64,000 bases of DNA from Euzebya rosea (GTDB taxonomy: Bacteria; Actinomycetota; Nitriliruptoria; Euzebyales; Euzebyaceae). This document shows positions 6,177 to 18,475 of this stretch, piece after piece (position 1 is the stretch's first letter; each line of letters starts with the position of its first letter). The stretch covers positions 248,001 through 312,000 of the forward strand of contig NZ_PGDQ01000006.1 in NCBI RefSeq assembly GCF_003073135.1. The letters are read 5' to 3'. The position numbers were made by a program, and so were the translations under genes. The notes under the pieces were generated by a model that worked only from the letters and a program-made list of their open reading frames with translations, did no database searches and had not been told where the DNA came from.

Positions 6177-7295
6177 ATGAGCGACCTCATCGAGATCGAG
6201 GACCTCGACGTCCAGGAGCGGTTCTTCGAGGAGGGGTGGACCGACGGCCTGCCGATCGTCCCCCCGACCCCCGATCGCGTGCTCGACATGATGCTGGCGG
6301 CCGGGGTGACCGACCCCGACGACGTGCTCGGCACCGTCCCCCAGCGGGGCCTGGCCGTCACCGTGGAGAAGGCCGCCATCAACGCGGTCATGGCTGGCTG
6401 CCGGCCGGAGTACTTCCCGATCGTCATCGCCGGCCTGTCCGCGATGCTCGACCCGGCGTTCAACGCCCACACCGCCACCACCAGCACCGGCGGCGCGGCC
6501 ATCTGCACCATCGTCAGCGGCCCCATGGCCCGCGAGGTCGGGATGAACGGCACGCACAACGCGCTCGGCTCGGGCAACCGGGCCAACGCCACGATCGGTC
6601 GGGCCATCCGCCTGGTCGCCGGCAACGTGCTTGGCGCGAAGAGCGGCGGGCTGGACGGCAGCTCGATGGGGCACCCGGGCAAGTACACGCTCTGCTTCGC
6701 CGAGGACCCGCCCCGTGCGCCGTGGCAACCGCTGTCCGCCGACCTCGGCTTCGATGCCGACGACACCGTCGTGACGGTCGTTCCCACCGAGGGTCCGCGG
6801 CAGGTCGCCAACCACCTCGTCGAGGACCCCGAACGCCTCCTGCTGACCTTCGCCGCCGCGATGAAGGTCCCCTCCAACTTCGTGTCCGGCAAGGGTGGGC
6901 AGGGCGTCGTCGTCCTGGGCCACGAGCACCACCTCGCCGTCGTCGAGGCCGGCTGGAGCCGACGAGACGTCCAGGAGTTCCTCGCCGAGGCCTCGCGCAT
7001 CACCCCAGAGGAGCTGCGCGCCGGCGGCATCGACCTGCCCGAGGGCAGCTCCCACGACCTGGTTCCCGGCCCCGACGGCAAGCTCGCGACCGTCCCCACC
7101 CCTGACGACGTGTTCGTCGTCACCGCCGGCGGTGCCGGCGCCGGCTGGTCGGCCTACATCCCGTCCTGGGCCCCCGTCGACGTCGCCATGGCTCGCGCCG
7201 TCAGCCGCCGGGTGCGGCCACCGGGCGAGGCGCTGCCCGACTGCGGCCCCGACGGCTGCGAGGTCACCCTCCCACCCATGGGGGAGGACTCGTGA
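6177..7295 (+). CDS. Conserved protein of unknown function, partner of the UGSC selenoprotein
   Basis: A 372-residue soluble protein starting at ATG 6177, with AGGAGG at 6161-6166 as ribosome-binding site; an in-frame extension upstream to 5187 is antisense noise. I do not recognise a characterised family. Visible features are an acidic N-terminus followed by WTDGLPIVPPTP, Gly/Ala-rich central segments (TATTSTGGAAICTIVSGP; GSGNRANATIGRAIRL), HEHH near residue 250, and a C-terminal Cys pair in DCGPDGCEV. Its TGA overlaps the GTG of the selenoprotein gene by four bases, so the two are translationally coupled and probably work together. The Cys pair may exchange disulphides with the partner's U/C centre, which is inference. 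Confidence 0.75.
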   Translation: MSDLIEIEDLDVQERFFEEGWTDGLPIVPPTPDRVLDMMLAAGVTDPDDVLGTVPQRGLAVTVEKAAINAVMAGCRPEYFPIVIAGLSAMLDPAFNAHTATTSTGGAAICTIVSGPMAREVGMNGTHNALGSGNRANATIGRAIRLVAGNVLGAKSGGLDGSSMGHPGKYTLCFAEDPPRAPWQPLSADLGFDADDTVVTVVPTEGPRQVANHLVEDPERLLLTFAAAMKVPSNFVSGKGGQGVVVLGHEHHLAVVEAGWSRRDVQEFLAEASRITPEELRAGGIDLPEGSSHDLVPGPDGKLATVPTPDDVFVVTAGGAGAGWSAYIPSWAPVDVAMARAVSRRVRPPGEALPDCGPDGCEVTLPPMGEDS

Positions 7296-7822
7296 CCGTC
7301 ATCCGCGTCCATCGGCCCGACATGGCCACCTCGTCCGCCGACGCGCTGGACCTGGCCCCACGCGTGCCGCTGCCCGACGACGCCAGGCTGCTCATCGTCG
7401 ACAACGGCAAGCCCAACGCCAAGGCGCTACTCGGCCACATCGGCGAGCGGCTGCGCGACCTCCTGGGCATCGCCCACGTCGAGGTCCACACCAAACCCTC
7501 TGCCGGCGCCCCGCTGGACGCCGACGTGACCCGGATGCTGGCGGCTCGCTCGCACCTGGTGATCTCCGGCCTCGGTGACTGAGGGGCCTGCACCGCGTGC
7601 AGTTTGCACGACTCCGTCCAGTTCGAGCGGCTGGGAATCCCCGCCACGCTCGTCATGACCGAGCCCTTCCAGGGCCTGGCTGCCCGCTTCGGGGCCACCC
7701 TCGGCGCGCCCGCCTACCCCACGGTCATGGTCCCCCACCCGGTGTCCACCAAGGACGACGCGGCGCTCCAGGCGCTCGCCGACCGTTTCGCCCCCGACGT
7801 GGCCGCCCGCCTCTCCACCTGA
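7292..7822 (+). CDS. UGSC-family selenoprotein (Sec97 encoded by in-frame TGA)
   Basis: A 176-residue protein if the TGA at 7580-7582 is read as selenocysteine. Residues before the stop (HLVISGLGD) and after it (GACTACSLHDS) form one continuous domain in the same frame: GLGD-U97-G-A-C100-T-A-C103-SLHDS-x4-E. This is the UGSC-family signature, here with Ala for Ser. Read as a stop, the product would be a 96-residue fragment ending at the active site, while good coding sequence with the family's C-terminal half (PATLVMTEPF; YPTVMVPHPVS) continues to TGA 7820-7822. A SECIS-like hairpin starts 13 bases after the TGA. GTG start overlaps the upstream stop (GTGA). Likely a redox enzyme; substrate unknown. 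The selA/B/C/D genes are not in this window. Confidence 0.88.
7580..7582 (+). other. UGA recoded as selenocysteine
   Basis: The in-frame TGA sits exactly where UGSC-family proteins carry Sec or Cys, followed by Gly-Ala-Cys. Frame and protein similarity continue without a shift on both sides, which a nonsense mutation in a decaying gene would not be expected to preserve so neatly. Confidence 0.85.
7596..7610 (+). promoter_or_regulatory. Bacterial SECIS-like hairpin
   Basis: CGTGCA (7596-7601) pairs perfectly with TGCACG (7605-7610) around a GTT loop. Bacterial SECIS elements lie just downstream of the UGA and carry a G at the loop apex, where SelB binds. The E. coli fdhF element likewise has a TGCA stem closed by a G/T-rich loop about 11 bases after the UGA; here the gap is 13 bases. 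A competing weaker stem, CTGCA/TGCAG, overlaps it at 7588-7602. Confidence 0.75.
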
Positions 7823-7852: not shown

Positions 7853-7888
7853 CCCGTACGCCCTGTACGTCCCGTACGCCCCGTACGC
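7853..7888 (+). repeat. Period-9 tandem repeat (CCCGTACGC type), four copies
   Basis: The tetramer GTAC recurs at 7856, 7865, 7874 and 7883, giving four near-perfect 9-bp units. It lies in the 278-bp gap between the selenoprotein gene and the convergent ligase gene. The rest of the gap is C/G-rich and shows no gene or clear terminator. The repeat may arise by slippage. Confidence 0.7.
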
Positions 7889-8100
7889 CCGATCCCGACG
7901 GATTCGTACCCACCGGCTGACGCAATCGTCCCCTCCTCCACCGTCGAACCCGCTGGGGGAGGGCGGTCCGCCGGCGGAATCGTCCCCGTCGCAGCGACGC
8001 AGGGCTCCGAGTGGGGACGAATCCCGTCAGGGGGATGGGGCCCGGCCTCCCTCCCGGGATCCCGGGGGAGGGGCCGACGAGCACACGGGGGAGGGGTGGG

Positions 8101-9818: not shown

Positions 9819-10289
9819 GTGACTGATCTGGCCGCAATCCGCGAGGTCGAGCAGGTGTTCGTCACCTACTTCGACCGAGTCGACGCCAAGGACCCCGAGG
9901 GGGCCGCGGCGGTCTTCGCCGAGGACGCGCGCATCGACATCATGACGGGTCGCGTCGTGGAGGGTCGGGACGCCTACGCGCGCACCCTCGCTGCGGTGCT
10001 CGGCCAGTACGGCCGGACCTCCCACCACGTGTCCAACTTCCAGGTCACCGTCGACGGCGACCGGGCGCAGCTGATGGCCTACGTCGACGCGGTGCACCGC
10101 ATGAAGGACGACGGCCGCATCTGGCAGCTCTGGGCCCGGATCGTCGACGTGCTCGAGCGCCGCGACGGCGAATGGACCGTCGTCGAGCACACCCTCCACG
10201 GGGTCGACTCCGAGCCCCCGTGGGACGCCATCCCCGACGACTGGTATCCGGGCCACCCGGACCGCCCGTTCGCCGACACCGCCAGCTGA
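9819..10289 (+). CDS. SnoaL/NTF2-like protein leading the LIV operon
   Basis: A 156-residue NTF2-fold protein, starting at GTG 9819 with GAGGAG at 9804-9809. Family features are the first helix with FVTYFDRVDAKDPEGAAAVFAEDARID, the motif VVEGRDAYA, and the paired histidines of TSHHVSNFQVTV. It is the first gene downstream of the operator at 9766 and lies 46 bp before the LIV permease genes, so it is probably co-transcribed with them. Its likely role is isomerase, cyclase or dehydratase on the imported compound or its CoA ester, but no substrate can be assigned. Confidence 0.82.
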   Translation: MTDLAAIREVEQVFVTYFDRVDAKDPEGAAAVFAEDARIDIMTGRVVEGRDAYARTLAAVLGQYGRTSHHVSNFQVTVDGDRAQLMAYVDAVHRMKDDGRIWQLWARIVDVLERRDGEWTVVEHTLHGVDSEPPWDAIPDDWYPGHPDRPFADTAS

Positions 10290-10335
10290 TCCCTCCCCCA
10301 CCCCCCGAACCAAGAGCCTACGGAAGGTCCTCGCG

Positions 10336-11208
10336 GTGTTCCTGCTGCAACTCCTCCTCAACGGGATAGCGATCGGCGCGATCTACGCGCTGGTCGCCCT
10401 GGGCTTCGTGCTCGTGTTCAAGGCCACCTCGGTCCTGAACTTCGCGCACGGCTCCTTCCTGATGATCGCTACCTACCTGGCGGTGACCTTCATCGACGTG
10501 CTCGAGCTGCCGTTCGCCGTCAGCCTGGTGGTCATCGCCGTCGTCCTCGCCGCAACCGGCGTGATCCTCCACTACGGGATCATGCGGCACATGGTCGGCA
10601 AGCCGTTCTTCTCCGTCGTGCTGGTCACCGTCGGCCTGGAGATCGTCATCCGGGCCGGCCTGCTGATCTTCTACGGCCCCACACCGCGCGGACGCCTGAC
10701 CGCCCTGCCGCAGGGTCAGCTGAACTTCGGCACCGTGACCATCCCCTACGTCAACGGGTTCATGGTCCTGGCCGCCGCCATCTCCGTCGGTGCATTCCTG
10801 GTCTTCTTCCAGCGCAGCCGTTTGGGTCTGCACATGCGCGCGGTCGCGGAGAACCTCGAGGCTGCCGCCGCGATGGGCATCGACCCCAACAAGATCTACG
10901 CCGCCGCTTGGGGGATCGGCCTGACCATGGCCGCCATCGGAGGCGTCATGTACGCCCACTACACCCCGTCGGTGTCGCTCGGCGTGGCCGTGATCGGCCT
11001 GCGGGCGTTCCCCGCGGCGATCCTCGGCGGGATCGACTCCGTCGGCGGCGCCATCCTGGGCGGCCTGCTCGTCGGCATCGTGGAGAGCGTTGGCGCCGGC
11101 TACCTGGGCGCGGAGTACCGCGACGTCATCGCCTTCGGGATCATGTTCGCCGTCCTGCTGTGGCGCCCCTCCGGGCTGTACGGCACCCGCGACCTGGTCC
11201 GGGTCTGA
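10336..11208 (+). CDS. livH: Branched-chain amino acid-type ABC transporter permease, LivH family
   Basis: A 290-residue inner-membrane permease with about eight predicted helices. The family signatures GIAIGAIYALVALGFVLVFKAT near the N-terminus (split here as start and middle) and RAVAENLEAAAAMGID, the cytoplasmic loop that contacts the ATPases, are present. It pairs with LivM to form the translocation channel. Gene order H-M-F-G with gaps of a few bases or overlaps indicates one transcript. In catabolic islands such LIV-type systems often carry aromatic or other carboxylic acids rather than Leu/Ile/Val, and the neighbours here favour that. Confidence 0.9.
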   Translation: MFLLQLLLNGIAIGAIYALVALGFVLVFKATSVLNFAHGSFLMIATYLAVTFIDVLELPFAVSLVVIAVVLAATGVILHYGIMRHMVGKPFFSVVLVTVGLEIVIRAGLLIFYGPTPRGRLTALPQGQLNFGTVTIPYVNGFMVLAAAISVGAFLVFFQRSRLGLHMRAVAENLEAAAAMGIDPNKIYAAAWGIGLTMAAIGGVMYAHYTPSVSLGVAVIGLRAFPAAILGGIDSVGGAILGGLLVGIVESVGAGYLGAEYRDVIAFGIMFAVLLWRPSGLYGTRDLVRV

Positions 11209-11218
11209 GGAGCCAACC

Positions 11219-12340
11219 GTGAAGACTGCCACCACCGACTACCGCCAGGACCTGCGGCTGCTGCGCACGCGCGGCCAGCGCCTCAACGCCTTCGCCGTCG
11301 TCATCGTCGCCATCGCCGTCCCCTTCGCGCTGTCCTCCGGCTTCGACCCGCCGCTGGACTTCCCGTGGACCGCCTGGTTCCCCGCCATCAACCTGGCGCT
11401 CATCGCCACGATCGGCGCCGCCGCCCTCAACCTGCTGCTCGGCTACACCCACCAGGTCAGCGTCGCCCACGCCGCGTTCCTGATGCTCGGCACGATGCTC
11501 GGCGCCTGGATGGGCCAGCTGCACGGCGTGAACTTCGTCGTCGTGATGGTCGCCTCGCTGATCGTCGGCGGCCTCGTCGGGGTGATCGTCGGTCTGCCAG
11601 CCCTGCGCTTCAAGGGCCTGTACCTGCTGATCGCCACCTTCGGCGTCCACTTCTTCTTCCTGCTGGCCTACAAGAAGTTCATCGTCGGCTACTTCGGGTT
11701 CAACGCCATCATCTTCACCGCCCCCGAGGTGCCCGCCTGGCTGCACTGGCTGCCGTTCATCACGCCCGACGACAACGGCGTCTTCGCCATCGCCGGCAAC
11801 TTCCGCTGGTACTGGGTCCTGCTGCCGATGGCGACGCTGTCGATCCTCTTCCTTTCCAACGTGGTCCGCAGCCGCGAGGGACGCGCCTTCATGGCCATCG
11901 CCGAGAAGGACGTGTCGGCGTCGCTGATCGGCATCAACGTCACCCGCACCAAGCTGACGGCGTTCGCGCTGTCCTCGGCCTTCGCGTCCCTCACCGGGGC
12001 CCTCGGCGCCTACTACATCGGCGCCCGCGGCGAGGACTCCTTCCCGTTCGAGCTGGTGCTCTTCTACGCCATCATGATCATCGTCGGCGGCATCTCGTCG
12101 TTCCAGGGAGCGGTGTTCGGCGCGTTCTTCTACTACCTGGCGCCGGTGCTGTTCGACTGGATCCGTGCGGAGGTCCCGGGCATTCGCTCCGTGGAGTTCC
12201 TGCAGGACTACGCCAACGAGACCAACCTCGCGATCTTCGGTGTGCTCATCGTGATCGTCCTGGTCGCCCGCCCCACCGGCCTCGTCGGTGTGTGGAAGTC
12301 ACTGAAGGGATACGTGAGCTCGTGGCCGTACAGCAGCTGA
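11219..12340 (+). CDS. livM: Branched-chain amino acid-type ABC transporter permease, LivM family
   Basis: A 373-residue membrane protein. GTG 11219 is chosen because AGGAG lies eight bases upstream and the gene follows livH by 10 bp; an upstream in-frame extension would lie within livH. About ten hydrophobic segments are visible, and the LivM signature (LNLLLGYTHQVSVAHAAFL) and ATPase-contact loop (AIAEKDVSASLIGINV) are clear. It is longer than a typical 320-residue LivM owing to an extracytoplasmic insertion around WLHWLPFITPDDNG. It forms the heterodimeric channel with LivH. Confidence 0.9.
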   Translation: MKTATTDYRQDLRLLRTRGQRLNAFAVVIVAIAVPFALSSGFDPPLDFPWTAWFPAINLALIATIGAAALNLLLGYTHQVSVAHAAFLMLGTMLGAWMGQLHGVNFVVVMVASLIVGGLVGVIVGLPALRFKGLYLLIATFGVHFFFLLAYKKFIVGYFGFNAIIFTAPEVPAWLHWLPFITPDDNGVFAIAGNFRWYWVLLPMATLSILFLSNVVRSREGRAFMAIAEKDVSASLIGINVTRTKLTAFALSSAFASLTGALGAYYIGARGEDSFPFELVLFYAIMIIVGGISSFQGAVFGAFFYYLAPVLFDWIRAEVPGIRSVEFLQDYANETNLAIFGVLIVIVLVARPTGLVGVWKSLKGYVSSWPYSS

Positions 12341-13152
12341 ACCCACACGCCGCAGGCGCCGACGCCGGCCTGGTCGTCCAGGGCCTGGCCGTGGACTACT
12401 CCGGCAGCGTCATCGCGCTGGACGGCGTGTCCATGCAGGTCCCCCCGGGCGGGTTCGTGTCCGTCCTCGGCGCCAACGGGGCCGGCAAGACCACCCTCGT
12501 CCGCGCCATCACCAACCTGCTGTTCGTGCACGACGGCAACGTCAGCCAGGGCAGCATCACCCTCGACGGCACGCCGATCGAGGCCGCCAGCGCCAGCAAG
12601 GTCGTCCGCGCCGGTGTCTGCCAGGTCCCCGAGGGGCGCATGCTCTTCCCCCGCCTGACGGTGGAGGAGAACCTGCTGGTCGGCGCGGCCAGCCGACGCG
12701 ACGGGGACGGCATCGACGCCGACCTCGAGAAGATGTTCGAGCTGTTCCCCCAGCTCGTGTCGCGCCGGACCGATCGGGCCGGCTACCTCTCCGGCGGCGA
12801 GCAGCAGATGATCGCCGTCGGCCGGGCGCTGATGGCCAAGCCCCGCCTGCTGATCTGCGACGAGCTGTCGCTGGGGCTGGCCCCCATGATCGTCCGCGAC
12901 CTCTTCGACCTGCTGACCCAGCTCAACGAGGAGGAGGGGATGGGCGTGCTCGTCATCGAGCAGAACGCCCGCGTCGCCCTGGCCCACAGCAAGTACGGCT
13001 ACGTCCTGGAGACCGGCCGGGTGGTGGTCGAGGGGACCAGCAAGGACCTGCGAGAGGACGGCTACGTGCAGGAGTACTACCTGGGCGGGGCCGGAGATGC
13101 CAAGGACGCCTACGAGGCCGTCGTCGCCCGCTACACCGGGAGGGCCTCGTGA
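12322..13152 (+). CDS. livF: ABC transporter ATP-binding protein, LivF family
   Basis: A 276-residue ATPase. The GTG at 12322 overlaps the end of livM by 19 bases, and a purine-rich GAAGGGA at 12304-12310 may serve as ribosome-binding site. Walker A is GANGAGKTT, the Q-loop region is CQVPEGRMLFPRLTVEENL (typical of LivF), the signature is LSGGEQQ, and Walker B is LLICDEL. The D-loop and switch His region are altered to EQNARVALA, which is normal for LivF. It powers import together with LivG. The C-terminus is about 30 residues longer than usual. Confidence 0.9.
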   Translation: MAVQQLNPHAAGADAGLVVQGLAVDYSGSVIALDGVSMQVPPGGFVSVLGANGAGKTTLVRAITNLLFVHDGNVSQGSITLDGTPIEAASASKVVRAGVCQVPEGRMLFPRLTVEENLLVGAASRRDGDGIDADLEKMFELFPQLVSRRTDRAGYLSGGEQQMIAVGRALMAKPRLLICDELSLGLAPMIVRDLFDLLTQLNEEEGMGVLVIEQNARVALAHSKYGYVLETGRVVVEGTSKDLREDGYVQEYYLGGAGDAKDAYEAVVARYTGRAS

Positions 13153-13979
13153 GCGCCCCCGTCACCCAGACCATGACCAACACCCCCGCGACCCAGGCCG
13201 CCCCGATCCTGACGCTCAACGACGTCACCGTGCAGTTCGGCGGGCTGAAGGCCTGCAACGGGGTGACCGCGCAGGTCCACCGTGGCGAGCTGTTCGCGCT
13301 GATCGGCCCCAACGGTGCCGGCAAGACGTCGTTGGTGAACGCCATCACCGGCGTCTACCAGCCCAACCCCGGCGCGGTCGTGGACTACACCGACGCCGAC
13401 GGGACGACCCACAGCCTCCTCGGGCGCAAGCCCCATCAGGTCGTGCGCATGGGCCTGTCGCGGACCTTCCAGAACCTCGGCCTGTTCCCGCAGCTGTCGC
13501 TGCTCGACAACATGATGCTGGGCCGCTACATCCATCAGCGCGGTGGGGTGTTCGCTGCCGGCTTCCGGACCCGCAAGGCCGTGAAGGAAGAGGTGGAGGC
13601 GCGCGCCGCCGTCGAACGGGTCATGGACCTGCTGGAGATCTCCCACCTGCGGTTCGAGCCGGTGGGTGACCTGCCCTACGGCCTGCAGAAGCGCATCGAG
13701 CTGGGTCGCGTGCTGGCGATGGAGCCCGACCTGCTGCTGCTGGACGAGCCGATGGCCGGCATGACGGTGGAGGAGAAGCTGGACGTCGTCCGCTTCATCT
13801 ACGAGATCCGTGCCGAGCTCGACGTCACCGTGCTGCTGATCGAGCACGACATGGCCGTCGTGATGAGCATCGCCGACCGCGTGCTCGCCCTGAACTTCGG
13901 CGAACCGATCGCGCTGGGCACCCCGGCGGAGGTCCAGCAGACCCCCGCCGTCGTCGAGGCCTACCTGGGAGCCGAGTGA
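13149..13979 (+). CDS. livG: ABC transporter ATP-binding protein, LivG family
   Basis: A 276-residue ATPase starting with GTG overlapping the livF stop (GTGA). Walker A is GPNGAGKTS and the Q-loop lies in GLSRTFQNLGLF. The signature reads LPYGLQKR instead of the canonical LSGGQ, which is common in LivG. Walker B is LLLLDEPMAGM, and the switch His is in LLIEHDMAVVM. An Asp/Pro-rich segment between Walker A and the Q-loop (VVDYTDADGTTHSLLGRKP) is a small insertion. It is predicted to pair with LivF on the cytoplasmic face. Confidence 0.9.
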   Translation: MSAPVTQTMTNTPATQAAPILTLNDVTVQFGGLKACNGVTAQVHRGELFALIGPNGAGKTSLVNAITGVYQPNPGAVVDYTDADGTTHSLLGRKPHQVVRMGLSRTFQNLGLFPQLSLLDNMMLGRYIHQRGGVFAAGFRTRKAVKEEVEARAAVERVMDLLEISHLRFEPVGDLPYGLQKRIELGRVLAMEPDLLLLDEPMAGMTVEEKLDVVRFIYEIRAELDVTVLLIEHDMAVVMSIADRVLALNFGEPIALGTPAEVQQTPAVVEAYLGAE

Positions 13980-15736
13980 TGTTCGAGACGATCTGGACCC
14001 CCCTGGCCGCCCGTGCGGCCGACGCACCCGACTCCGTGGCCGTGCTGCAGAAGCGGTTCGGCCTGTGGACCGCCACCACCTCCGCCGAGCTGGTCGCCCG
14101 GGTCGTCGCCACCGCCACCGCCCTGCGGGACGACGGGGTCGGCCGCGGTGACGTCGTCGTCCTCGTGCTGGCTCCCCACGAGGACCGGGTCGTCATCGAC
14201 CTCGCCGTCCAGCTGCTCGGAGGGCTGGTCGTCGGCGTGCCGTCCAACACCCCGCTGCCCCGGGTGCGTCACCTGCTGGAGGACAGCCCGCCCGCCGTGG
14301 CCGTCGTCCAGGGTCAGGCCGCGGCCGACGGCATCCTCGAGCTGCTCGACGACGGTGCCCTGCCCAAGCTGCGGCGCATGTACTACCTGGACCCGGCCGG
14401 CGTGCAGGAGTACGCCTCCCCCGTCCTGGCCCCCTTCCCGGCGGTCGACGCCGCGTCGGTGACCGCCCCGAGCACCGCCATGACGGCCCTCGCCGACGAG
14501 CTCGACCCGCTTGCCATCGCGGCCCGCACCACCACCTCGGGCACCTTCGCGCTGCCCGCCCCGGTGCTGCTCAGCCACGTCAACCTGGCCGCGGCGGCCA
14601 GCGCCACGATCGAGGCGTTCGACCTCGGCCCGGGCGACCGGGTCATGTCGTTCCGCCCCCTGTCGGACCCCGTCGAGCGTGGCGCCACGGTGTTCCCGGC
14701 GCTGCTGTCCGGGGCGACGCTGGTGCTGCCGGAGTCGCGGGCCAGCGTCGGGCAGGCGATGGTCGAGATCGCCCCCACCTACCTGCACCTCACCCCCCGC
14801 TTCGCCGAGGAGCTGGCCACCGACGTGCGGCTGCGCATGCAGGCCACCACCGGGCTCAAGGGCATGGTGCTCAAGTCGTGGAACGCCAAGCTGCGTGCCG
14901 CGGTGGAGGAGGGACGAACCCCCCAGCCCTCGGGCGTGTCGCGGGCGCTCGTCGGCCGGCACGTCCTGGGCAAGCTCGGCCTGGACCAGGTGCGCTGGCT
15001 GCTGGTCAGCGGCACGCCGATCTCACCCGAGGCAGTGGCGTTCTACGCCGCGCTCGGGGTCACGTTGCGCCGTGCCTACTCGATGGCGCAGGTCGGCGGG
15101 TTCGCCATGGCGACCACCGCAGGGACCGTCGGCTGGGAAACCGCCATGACCCCGGTCCCCGGCATCGAGGCCGGCGTCGAGCACGGTGAGCTGCTCCTGC
15201 GTGGGCCCTCCGTCAGCGAGGACGCCACCACCGACGGCTGGCTGCGCACCGGTGACTCCGCGGAGTCCGTCGACGACGGGTTCGTCGTCACCGGCAGGGT
15301 CGGCGACGACGTGCCGACCAGCAGCGGCGGGACCGTGACGGCACAGCAGGTCGCCGCCCGGCTGCGCTCCTCCCCCTACATCCGCGAGGCCGTCGTCGCC
15401 GTCGAGGACGGGTTCGTCGTCGCGGTCGTGGAGGCCGCCCAGGCCACCCTGTCGCGCTGGGCCAACAACAAGGGCCTGCGGTTCACCACCGCCCGGTCGC
15501 TGATCGCGCTGCCGGAGTCGCAGGAGCTGTTGCGCCGGGCCGTCGACACCGCGGCCGCACGCCTCGACGTGCAGCTCGACGACGTCAGGGTGCTGGCCGC
15601 GCCGCTCTCGGTCGCCGACGGCACCCTGACCGGCACCGAGAAGCCGGTGTGGGACGCGGTGCTCGCCGCCGAGGTCGTGCCGACCGGGGCGAGGGTGGAC
15701 ACCCCGACCGACGCCGCTGCACGCGCCCTGAAGTGA
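13979..15736 (+). CDS. Divergent AMP-binding (long-chain acyl-CoA synthetase-like) protein with eroded motifs
   Basis: A 585-residue ANL-fold protein; ATG 13979 shares a base with the livG stop. The fold is recognisable (N-terminal FETIWTPLAARAADAPDSVA, SGTPISPEAVAFYAALGV, DGWLRTGDSAE), and it most resembles long-chain acyl-CoA synthetases. The catalytic motifs are degenerate. The phosphate loop reads TTTSGTFALPAP (about residue 181) without the TGxPKG core, the usual YGMTE is YSMAQ, and the hinge GRxKD is GRVGDD. Either it binds a CoA ester without making it, or it is a highly diverged ligase. Its place in a LIV operon suggests sensing or channelling of the imported acid. Not a pseudogene by frame. 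Confidence 0.75.
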   Translation: MFETIWTPLAARAADAPDSVAVLQKRFGLWTATTSAELVARVVATATALRDDGVGRGDVVVLVLAPHEDRVVIDLAVQLLGGLVVGVPSNTPLPRVRHLLEDSPPAVAVVQGQAAADGILELLDDGALPKLRRMYYLDPAGVQEYASPVLAPFPAVDAASVTAPSTAMTALADELDPLAIAARTTTSGTFALPAPVLLSHVNLAAAASATIEAFDLGPGDRVMSFRPLSDPVERGATVFPALLSGATLVLPESRASVGQAMVEIAPTYLHLTPRFAEELATDVRLRMQATTGLKGMVLKSWNAKLRAAVEEGRTPQPSGVSRALVGRHVLGKLGLDQVRWLLVSGTPISPEAVAFYAALGVTLRRAYSMAQVGGFAMATTAGTVGWETAMTPVPGIEAGVEHGELLLRGPSVSEDATTDGWLRTGDSAESVDDGFVVTGRVGDDVPTSSGGTVTAQQVAARLRSSPYIREAVVAVEDGFVVAVVEAAQATLSRWANNKGLRFTTARSLIALPESQELLRRAVDTAAARLDVQLDDVRVLAAPLSVADGTLTGTEKPVWDAVLAAEVVPTGARVDTPTDAAARALK

Positions 15737-15770
15737 GCCGCCCCATGCCACTCGACCGGCAGGAAGCCGC

Positions 15771-16904
15771 GTGAGGGTCAGCACGATCAGGACCGTGGAG
15801 GACATGCGCCGGGCAGCCCACCGGCGCATGCCGCGCATGGTCGCGGACTTCATCGACGGCGGTGCCGAGGACGAGTCGACGGTCAGGGCCAACCGCAGCG
15901 GCTTCGCCGACGTGGCCCTGCGCCCGACGGTGCTCGACGGCAGCCTGACCCGGACGTTGTCCACCACCGTCGTCGGGCAGCACCTGTCGTTCCCCGTCAT
16001 GTTGTCGCCCGCCGGGCTGCTGCGCCTCGCCCACGCCGACGGCGAGGTGGGTGCCGCCCGGGCCGCGGCCGCCGCGGGAACCGTCTTCACCCTCAGCACC
16101 GGGTCGTCCTGCACCATCGAGGACATCGGCACCGACGGCCCGCGCTGGTTCCAGCTGTACCTGTGGAAGGACCGGGAGGTCGTCGCCGACCTGGTGCGCC
16201 GGGCACGCGAGGCGGGCTACAGCGCCATCGTCCTGACCGTCGACGTGCCGGTGGTCGGCCAGCGCGAACGCGACCTGCGCAACGGCATGACGTTGCCCCC
16301 ACGGCCGAGCCTGCCGAACCTGCTGGACGCCGCTCGCCACCCCGCGTGGGTGCGCGACTACCTGACGGGGCCGCCGCTGACGTTCGCCAACTTCACCGAG
16401 CTCGGCCGGGGGTCGGGCGCAACGTCGCTCGGCGAGTGGATCAACAGGGAGATGACCGACCCCGGCCAGAGCTGGGACGACCTGGCCTGGCTGCGCGAGC
16501 AGTGGGAGGGGCCGCTGCTGGTCAAGGGCCTCGTCTCGCCGGCGGATGCACGGCGGGCCGTCGACATGGGTGTCGACGGCATCGTGGTGTCCAACCACGG
16601 CGGCCGTCAGCTGGACGGCATGGTCGGCGCCGTCGCGGCCCTCCCGGCCGTGGTCGACGCCGTCGGCGACCGGGCCGACGTGATCCTCGACGGCGGGGTG
16701 CGGCGAGGGACCGACATCGTCAAGGCGTTGGCGCTCGGGGCGACCGCCGTGTCGGTCGGCCGTCCGTATGTCTGGGGCCTGGGCGCCGGCGGCGCCACCG
16801 GTGTGCTGCGGGTGCTGGACATCCTCCGGACCGAGCTGGACCGGACCCTCGCGCTGATGGGCGTGCGGTCGGTGGTCGACCTCGGGCCACACCACTTGGC
16901 CTGA
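15771..16904 (+). CDS. FMN-dependent alpha-hydroxy-acid oxidase/dehydrogenase
   Basis: A 377-residue TIM-barrel flavoprotein of the glycolate oxidase / L-lactate dehydrogenase / lactate 2-monooxygenase / mandelate dehydrogenase family. It oxidises an L-2-hydroxy acid to the 2-oxo acid through FMN. Family marks are the N-terminal DFIDGGAEDE, FQLYLWKDR, LTVDVPVVGQRERDLRNGM, KGLVSPADARRAVDMGVDGI, the active-site SNHGGRQLDG with catalytic His and Arg, and DGGVRRGTDIVKALALGA. Start GTG 15771, AGGAAG upstream. It follows the AMP-binding gene by 34 bp in the LIV operon, so the imported substrate or a product is probably a 2-hydroxy acid. Confidence 0.88.
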   Translation: MRVSTIRTVEDMRRAAHRRMPRMVADFIDGGAEDESTVRANRSGFADVALRPTVLDGSLTRTLSTTVVGQHLSFPVMLSPAGLLRLAHADGEVGAARAAAAAGTVFTLSTGSSCTIEDIGTDGPRWFQLYLWKDREVVADLVRRAREAGYSAIVLTVDVPVVGQRERDLRNGMTLPPRPSLPNLLDAARHPAWVRDYLTGPPLTFANFTELGRGSGATSLGEWINREMTDPGQSWDDLAWLREQWEGPLLVKGLVSPADARRAVDMGVDGIVVSNHGGRQLDGMVGAVAALPAVVDAVGDRADVILDGGVRRGTDIVKALALGATAVSVGRPYVWGLGAGGATGVLRVLDILRTELDRTLALMGVRSVVDLGPHHLA

Positions 16905-16950
16905 GTGGCCTGCCAACCTGACAATCGTTTGAATTGGCCTCGTGAAACCG

Positions 16951-16979
16951 TTGACGGTTCAGTCCGGGGCCTATTATGA
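16951..16979 (+). promoter_or_regulatory. Candidate sigma70-type promoter of the LIV binding-protein gene
   Basis: TTGACG (16951-16956) is followed after 17 bases by TTATGA, or after 15 bases by TATTAT. It stands in the 182-bp gap upstream of the binding-protein gene, with the operator at 16988 immediately downstream, a normal repressor position. Confidence 0.5.
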
Positions 16980-16987
16980 TCCTCGTA

Positions 16988-17009
16988 GCTTACTGACCGG
17001 TTGGTAAGC
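16988..17009. promoter_or_regulatory. Family 1 operator upstream of the LIV binding protein
   Basis: Arms GCTTAC and GTAAGC flank the palindromic core ACCGGT in a 22-bp near-perfect inverted repeat. Sixteen bases (ACTGACCGGTTGGTAA) are identical to the reverse strand of the site upstream of the selenoprotein operon. A TetR-type regulator is inferred. Confidence 0.65.
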
Positions 17010-17086
17010 GCCGTCCGTCGGACGGAGAGGGCCACGGTCAAGAAGTGGTTCATCGTTCCACTACAAGCAAGGGTCTGGAGCCGAAG

Positions 17087-18475
17087 ATGCGTACACGTCG
17101 TTGGATAGTGCTGGTGGGGCTGTTGGCCATCGTGGCCGCGGGCTGCAGCTCGAGTGATGACGGAGGTGCCGAGGAGTCCACGGACACCGGCGACACCGCC
17201 GAGGAGACGTCGGACGCCACCGAAGCCGACGCCGATGACAGCGGCGACGAGGACGCCGACGCCGACGCCGACGACAGCGGCGACGAGAGTGCCGACAGCG
17301 GTGACGCCGGCACGGTCCCGGATGCGCCGGACTTCGGTGTCGACAGCGACACCATCCGCATCGGCTGGCTCGGCGACGTGACCGGCCCGACCGCCGCCGC
17401 CCAGGGCTTCAACCTGGAGGGTGCCGAAGCCGCCGTGGCCTACCTCAACGAGCAGGGCGGCGTCCTCGGACGCGAGCTCGAGCTGGCCGTCCAGGACGAC
17501 CAGTACAACCCCGAGACGATGGCGACCAACTTCGCCGCCATCACCTCCGACAACCCCGTCCTGTCGATCATCCAGTGCGGCAACTGCGTGTCGCTGCTGC
17601 CCCAGTTCGCCAGCACCGGCATCCCGTTGATCAGCCCGCCGCAGACGGTGGACGCCCAGCTCGAGGTCCCCAACGTCTACAACAACCTCGCCCACTACGG
17701 TGACGAGGCCGACGTGGCCGTCGCCTACATCGCGGAGAAGGTCGGCGCCATCGAGGACGCCAACGTTGCCGTGGTCCACCTCGAGGTCCCCTCGGGTGCG
17801 GAGTGGAACGCCTACATCCAGCAGACGCTGGAGGAGCAGGGCGGCAACTACCTGGGCGCCATGACCATCAACATCGGTGCCCCCGACTACACCGGCGTCG
17901 TCACCCAGCTGGCCCAGATGCGCAACAACGACGGCCTCAACTACGTGGCCTTCCACGGTGCGCCGGAGACCGGCCTCGGCATGATCAGCGAGATGGTCAC
18001 GCAGGGCCTGACCGACGTCCCCATGGTCGGCATCCACGGCCTTGCCGGTGCCACCATCTTCCAGGAGGGCCCGCCCGAGGCCGCCGACCTGCTGGCCGGT
18101 GCCCACTCGTTCCTGTCCCCGTTGGACGACTGCGAGATGTGCGCCACCATCCGTGACTTCGTCGCTGGTACCGAGTGGGAGGACGCGGCGATCGAGACCA
18201 ACTTCGCCGACGGCTGGCACGAGGTCCTGATCGCGGCCGAGGCCATGGAGCGTGCGGCGGCCGACGCCGGCGAGCTCAGCTGGGACTCGATGAACGCCGC
18301 ACTCACCTCGGCGCCCTTCGACACCGGCGGCCTGACCTGCGAGGTCGACTGGACCAACGGCAACCAGTCGCTGTGTGCCGCAGTCTTCGAGTGGAACGGC
18401 GAGTTCATGGAGCCCGCCAAGCCCTTCGAGGAGTACGCCGGCGACATCGACGGCGTCTACGGCGCCGGCGGCTAG
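17087..18475 (+). CDS. LIV-type ABC transporter substrate-binding lipoprotein
   Basis: A 462-residue lipoprotein. ATG 17087 is preferred over an upstream in-frame GTG because it has TCTGGAG seven bases before it and starts a proper signal (MRTRRWIV) ending in the lipobox VAAG-C20. Residues about 25-75 form a highly acidic Asp/Glu/Ser/Thr linker. The remainder is a Leu/Ile/Val-binding Peripla_BP_6 domain: IRIGWLGDVTGPTAAAQGF, GGVLGRELELAVQDDQYNP, and so on. It has its own promoter and operator, allowing excess over the permease. A Cys cluster (CGNCVS; DDCEMCAT) is unusual and may form disulphides. Ligand unknown. Confidence 0.9.
   Translation: MRTRRWIVLVGLLAIVAAGCSSSDDGGAEESTDTGDTAEETSDATEADADDSGDEDADADADDSGDESADSGDAGTVPDAPDFGVDSDTIRIGWLGDVTGPTAAAQGFNLEGAEAAVAYLNEQGGVLGRELELAVQDDQYNPETMATNFAAITSDNPVLSIIQCGNCVSLLPQFASTGIPLISPPQTVDAQLEVPNVYNNLAHYGDEADVAVAYIAEKVGAIEDANVAVVHLEVPSGAEWNAYIQQTLEEQGGNYLGAMTINIGAPDYTGVVTQLAQMRNNDGLNYVAFHGAPETGLGMISEMVTQGLTDVPMVGIHGLAGATIFQEGPPEAADLLAGAHSFLSPLDDCEMCATIRDFVAGTEWEDAAIETNFADGWHEVLIAAEAMERAAADAGELSWDSMNAALTSAPFDTGGLTCEVDWTNGNQSLCAAVFEWNGEFMEPAKPFEEYAGDIDGVYGAGG

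Follow-up and report, generated by a model that had tools for sequence, protein, structure and literature searches.

The TGA at positions 7580–7582 (+ strand) of a 64,000-nucleotide stretch of the Euzebya rosea genome (contig NZ_PGDQ01000006.1; hereafter the window) is very probably read as selenocysteine (Sec) and not as a stop, and the hairpin that follows it (7596–7610, + strand) is almost certainly a genuine, evolutionarily conserved Sec insertion sequence (SECIS) element. Both lie within a gene of 176 amino acid codons plus a stop (7292–7822, + strand), which is a further and well-supported member of the already known, functionally uncharacterised UGSC family of selenoproteins, with a standard bacterial SECIS (bSECIS). 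We base this on what was observed computationally: a reading frame conserved across the TGA, Sec machinery in the genome, conservation and covariation of the hairpin among homologs with TGA, and its loss in homologs that encode Cys. The TGA, encoding the U of D-U-G-A-C, should be annotated as Sec; this recovers a protein which standard gene calling would end at residue 96 or divide into two.

The GTG start of the gene overlaps the stop codon of the gene upstream (6177–7295). With the TGA translated as a residue, the product matched the Pfam UGSC family (PF24696) with a score of 151.6 bits (gathering score 25; E 3e-44) over positions 2–171 of the 172 in the profile, and therefore across the TGA. 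The sole match in an NCBIfam search was to the UGSC equivalog NF041046 (UGSC_fam), and because its score of 118.8 bits is below the curated cut-off of 125, the gene is filed under PF24696 and not under NF041046. The peptide around the TGA, GDUGACTACSLHD, has the U/C-x-x-C motif after an Asp together with the conserved Asp downstream; across 25 sequences D91, C/U92, G93, C95, and D102 are invariant. In aquatic metagenomes, UGSC-containing proteins are a major family of selenoproteins, of which the Global Ocean Sampling (GOS) data contain 255 Sec and 21 Cys forms (PMC2398784), and their function is given as unknown (PMC13188914). That the protein belongs to an already known selenoprotein family was absent from the preliminary description of this DNA.

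A standard listing of open reading frames (ORFs) reports two ORFs, 7292–7582 and another that has its internal start at 7604, as would be expected if the TGA were a true stop or a decayed codon, leaving two ORFs or a pseudogene, or if it were passed by near-cognate tRNA readthrough. We consider this exceedingly improbable based on the homologs, since within the class all 25 UGSC matches that exceed the family cut-off contain one TGA, as nearly all of those listed from a related family contain exactly one, and the position aligns with Cys in other lineages. TGA is the only in-frame stop reported for these matches, with no case of TAA or TAG, and the frame is otherwise undamaged. In addition, the genome has the machinery for Sec. 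Its tRNA-Sec, with the anticodon TCA (UCA), scored above the Rfam cut-off, and selA, selD, and selB, the last including the C-terminal winged helix domain SelB-wing_3, scored above curated cut-offs, because of which we class the genome, on its gene content, as able to make and use Sec. The same genome has a second UGSC copy, also with a TGA and a hairpin (GTCGTGCA-GTG-TGCATGAC). Across genomes, selA was above the cut-off in 26 of the 29 with a TGA-containing UGSC match versus 10 of the 23 with only Cys forms, as raw counts that ignore kinship.

The hairpin, CGTGCA-GTT-TGCACG, consists of a stem pairing 7596–7601 with 7605–7610 and an apical loop, GTT, at 7602–7604. This is exactly the perfect six-base-pair (bp) stem, 13 nucleotides (nt) after the TGA, that had been noticed previously and proposed as a SECIS element. 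The published bSECIS consensus comprises an upper stem of 4–16 bp, an apical loop of 3–9 nt, 16–37 nt between the Sec UGA and the loop, a G at loop position 1 or 2, or both (mostly then G or U), and a minimum free energy (MFE) of -7.5 kcal/mol or lower (PMC13188914). The window element conforms in its 6-bp stem and 3-nt loop, in its spacing of 19 nt from TGA to apical loop, and in the G of its loop, which in most relatives begins GT; its energy, -7.6 kcal/mol for the hairpin alone, is only marginally within the limit. When 7580–7625 was folded, these exact six pairs were present in both the MFE and centroid structures, although the fold of this 46-nt piece was not more stable than shuffles of it (z-score +0.95), an energy ordinary for its composition. 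Moreover, a perfect 6-bp hairpin with the right spacing and a G at loop position 1 or 2 follows 66 of the 1207 TGA trinucleotides on both strands of the GC-rich window (5.5%). Taken alone, then, the hairpin is weak evidence, being only mildly unusual, and its significance comes from comparative data and not from folding. An Rfam scan of the window gave no match, which is uninformative, as no Rfam model of bacterial SECIS elements is known to us.

A competing CTGCA/TGCAG stem (7588–7592 with 7598–7602) had been named as a possible obstacle. It is the weaker structure, at -5.1 versus -7.6 kcal/mol, and it loses to the hairpin in three of four folds, those of 46, 40, and 121 nt, with pair probabilities of 0.16 versus 0.76 in the 46-nt fold and 0.00 versus 0.84 in the 121-nt fold. 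It is also less conserved, being complete in 25 of 52 distinct sequences versus 47 of 52 for the hairpin. Since its 5' strand lies 6–10 nt after the UGA, within the stretch expected to be covered by a ribosome decoding that codon, the competing stem would probably be melted at the moment when it could matter.

For the comparative analyses we assembled 106 UGSC genes with TGA and 59 with TGC or TGT at the same codon, from whole genomes and public contigs; the contig scan used a pattern of Cys codons and hence returned Cys forms only, and these served as the control set. The six core pairs are complete in 101 of the 106 Sec genes versus a single one of the 59 Cys genes and, when only distinct 24-mers are counted, in 29 of 34 versus 1 of 54. 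Thirty of the 34 distinct Sec sequences satisfy the bSECIS rule at -7.5 kcal/mol or lower (median -12.3), two of them (L033 and L034) only via another hairpin 37 nt downstream, versus 7 of the 54 Cys sequences. Conservation among orthologs, the lack of which had been named as grounds for refutation, is thus present in the homologs with TGA, where it is accompanied by compensatory changes, and absent from those with a Cys codon.

Such a pattern could in principle be a by-product of the protein motif C-S-L/V-H-D, with no RNA signal involved, based on the fact that the codons TGC AGY NTG CAC GAC pair with themselves. Conservation of the motif is indeed strong, and with high-GC codons chance alone yields about 5.0 of 8 pairs. 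However, when the peptides were kept and their codons redrawn by the background usage of these genes in 2000 trials, complete stems averaged 1.9 and reached at most 8 of 34, versus the 29 seen, and therefore the peptide does not explain the hairpin. Cys homologs provide a second argument. The nearest Cys relatives, two Nocardioides genes (L071 and L073; 45–46% identical to the window protein, with the common motif GACTACS.HD), nest inside the Sec clade of the window with a branch support of 97 and have an upstream partner gene as in the window (57% identity). They have TGC for TGA and encode GDCGACTACSVHD (D-C-GACTACSVHD), nearly the peptide of the window, but with the codons GCC/GCA TGC TCG GTG CAC, and the SECIS hairpin is missing. 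As these Nocardioides genomes still have selA, the hairpin was lost with the codon and not with the machinery. Conversely, divergent members that have a TGA but other peptides (HUGSCTSGTVRD, CUGSCTPAVMR, and VGGUPGC) have different hairpins at a similar distance: the loops lie 16–20 nt beyond the UGA, with a G at loop position 1 or 2. The divergent TGA-bearing paralogs, with the motifs H-U-GSCTSGTVRD, C-U-GSCTPAVMR, and VGG-U-xGC (L188, L189, L190, L193, and L153; also L156, L157, and L065), apparently constitute separate subfamilies.

Covariation likewise argues against the protein motif as the source of the stem. In a gapless alignment of 45 columns and 34 Sec sequences, 91.5% of the cells of an 8-pair stem are paired, versus at most 52% for slid versions, and there are double-sided changes in 17 cells over five pairs; none of 500 shuffles reached either this cell count or the covariation score. 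The same structure placed on 38 Cys sequences gave no covariation signal above shuffles. Two of the patterns are, as judged from the codons, largely independent of the peptide. Ser TCG pairs with His CAC or CAT, whereas Ser TCA occurs with CAT only, in three of three cases (L011, L033, and L135, from three taxonomic families of genomes; Fisher p 0.004), so that TCG/CAC to TCA/CAT is a purely synonymous double change. Similarly, two codons downstream, Val is encoded by GTG after TGC in 23 of 23 sequences and by GTC after TGG in seven of seven (p 5e-7), a C-G pair being replaced by G-C with a synonymous change in the partner, while after TGG the Cys genes use GTC, GTG, and GTT alike. Finally, 43 of the 44 distinct Sec sequences have the rare AGT as the Ser codon of the loop, versus none of 17 Cys sequences (as background, AGT accounts for 26 of the 627 Ser codons elsewhere in the Sec genes), and G-U is therefore retained in the loop. 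With this evidence an origin of the hairpin in the protein motif becomes highly improbable; both this artefact and decay or readthrough were rejected.

Several observations weigh against interpreting the hairpin as a SECIS element. The competing stem dominates (0.85 versus 0.12) when the piece folded is 7586–7630. The hairpin is also near the weak end for such elements, with -7.6 kcal/mol versus the published limit of -7.5 and 6 bp versus the usual 8. Three TGA homologs (L028, L033, and L034) keep most of the stem but have no G at loop position 1 or 2, and a fourth (L031) fits only with a bulge. The homologs are related, and the counts given above consequently exaggerate the independent evidence; only three switches between Sec and Cys are forced by well-supported branches, and a tree-based independent-pair test of Sec against hairpin was in the expected direction but not significant, being too small with three supported pairs. 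In addition, selA was not found in two genomes with a TGA form (G099, 94% complete, and G044, 71% complete).

Some of these cases have features of their own. The window stem is among the shortest of the UGSC family, a fact not recognised in the preliminary description: it has 6 bp and not 8 because in the lineage of the window Ser TCG became Ala GCG and the usual 8-bp stem, GTCGTGCA/TGCACGAC, lost its two outer pairs. The three homologs lacking the loop G are TGA forms of a subgroup with S-W-L/I-x-HD; either their SECIS loop is a variant one, or their register is different. In G099 the TGA-form gene (L051) has a good hairpin and no selA match was found, pointing to either a missing contig or an unusual Sec route.

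By analogy with the mechanism in E. coli, SelB loaded with GTP and Sec-tRNA(Sec) would be docked on the apical stem-loop through its C-terminal winged helix and, when a ribosome arrives at the UGA at 7580, would deliver Sec to that codon. The product would be the 176-residue protein with an active-site U-x-x-C motif in place of a 96-residue fragment. Stem-loops 3' of stop codons are known to stimulate readthrough in some systems, and the hairpin could accordingly be imagined merely to boost readthrough or pausing, with insertion independent of SelB. The conservation of the hairpin in homologs, its covariation, and the Sec machinery of the genome instead support Sec insertion at a SECIS element, as the preliminary description had held, and leave a SelB-independent role with hardly any probability.

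Less expected than the SECIS element are the predicted fold of the protein and its constant partner gene. The AlphaFold model of the UGSC protein (mean predicted local distance difference test score 94.2 over 176 residues) has five strands alternating with helices, with Sec placed at the end of the third strand, directly before a helix. Its best Foldseek/VIA matches are to flavodoxin-like, PurE, and response-regulator-like folds, with modest scores (TM about 0.45–0.5, Z about 8–10). A thioredoxin-like fold was suggested for UGSC-containing proteins (PMC2398784); the model, which predicts a flavodoxin-like alpha/beta fold, does not support that suggestion, and there was no thioredoxin-fold chain among the fold matches listed, although this does not exclude a thioredoxin fold. 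A sequence search of the PDB found no relative of either the UGSC protein or the partner protein.

The partner is the upstream gene (6177–7295, + strand), encoding a conserved, unannotated protein of 372 amino acids with no match in Pfam, NCBIfam, or PDB; searches for remote Pfam and NCBIfam relatives gave scattered single-member noise only, and Foldseek no match at E ≤ 0.001. Homologs of this protein, with the conserved segments WTDGLPxxPPT and NAVMAGC, are present in the flanks retrieved around UGSC in almost every locus examined (124 loci with a hit), on either side of the gene, with both Sec and Cys forms, and in both bacteria and archaea. From this we infer that the two proteins are partners in one enzyme or pathway. 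We lean towards the more specific view that they form one enzyme, encoded by a conserved and so far undescribed two-gene module in which a flavodoxin-like Sec/Cys protein and a partner of about 370 amino acids are encoded next to each other in actinobacteria, proteobacteria, and archaea. More tentatively, the Sec/Cys pair might have a redox or thiol-type role together with the partner protein. Among the selenoprotein families of aquatic metagenomes UGSC is one of the commonest, and its constant partner gene offers a concrete way into its function.

Just downstream of the UGSC gene, at 7853–7890, there are short imperfect repeats of CGTACGCCC / CGTACGTCC. Further downstream on the + strand (9819–18475) are genes for products resembling a branched-chain-amino-acid-type ABC (ATP-binding cassette) transporter (permeases, two ATPases, and a binding protein), an acyl-CoA ligase, and a flavin mononucleotide-dependent alpha-hydroxy-acid dehydrogenase; judged by these likenesses, they may constitute the metabolic context of the UGSC pair.

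Of the known systems, E. coli fdhF was the one to which the hairpin had been likened, and in form the likeness is real. Both have TGCA stem ends and a small loop beginning with G, as TGCA-GGTC-TGCA with the loop 18 nt after the UGA in fdhF and as TGCA-GTT-TGCA at 19 nt in the window. The window element differs in its 3-nt loop, GTT versus GGTC, and in its continuous 6-bp stem, and we claim no homology between the two. Relative to the bSECIS consensus, the window element lies within all of the constraints, passing only the energy limit narrowly. A further counterpart is the UGSC family itself (PF24696, NF041046, and the "UGSC-containing protein" of PMC2398784), a family recognised as selenoproteins since the Sargasso Sea and GOS surveys and abundant in aquatic metagenomes, with which the window gene has in common a full-length match across the TGA, the U-x-x-C motif, and a predominance of TGA forms, its own motif being U-G-A-C versus U-G-S-C in the family. 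With nearly identical peptides containing Sec or Cys and an RNA hairpin that comes and goes with the TGA, this family provides a clean natural experiment.
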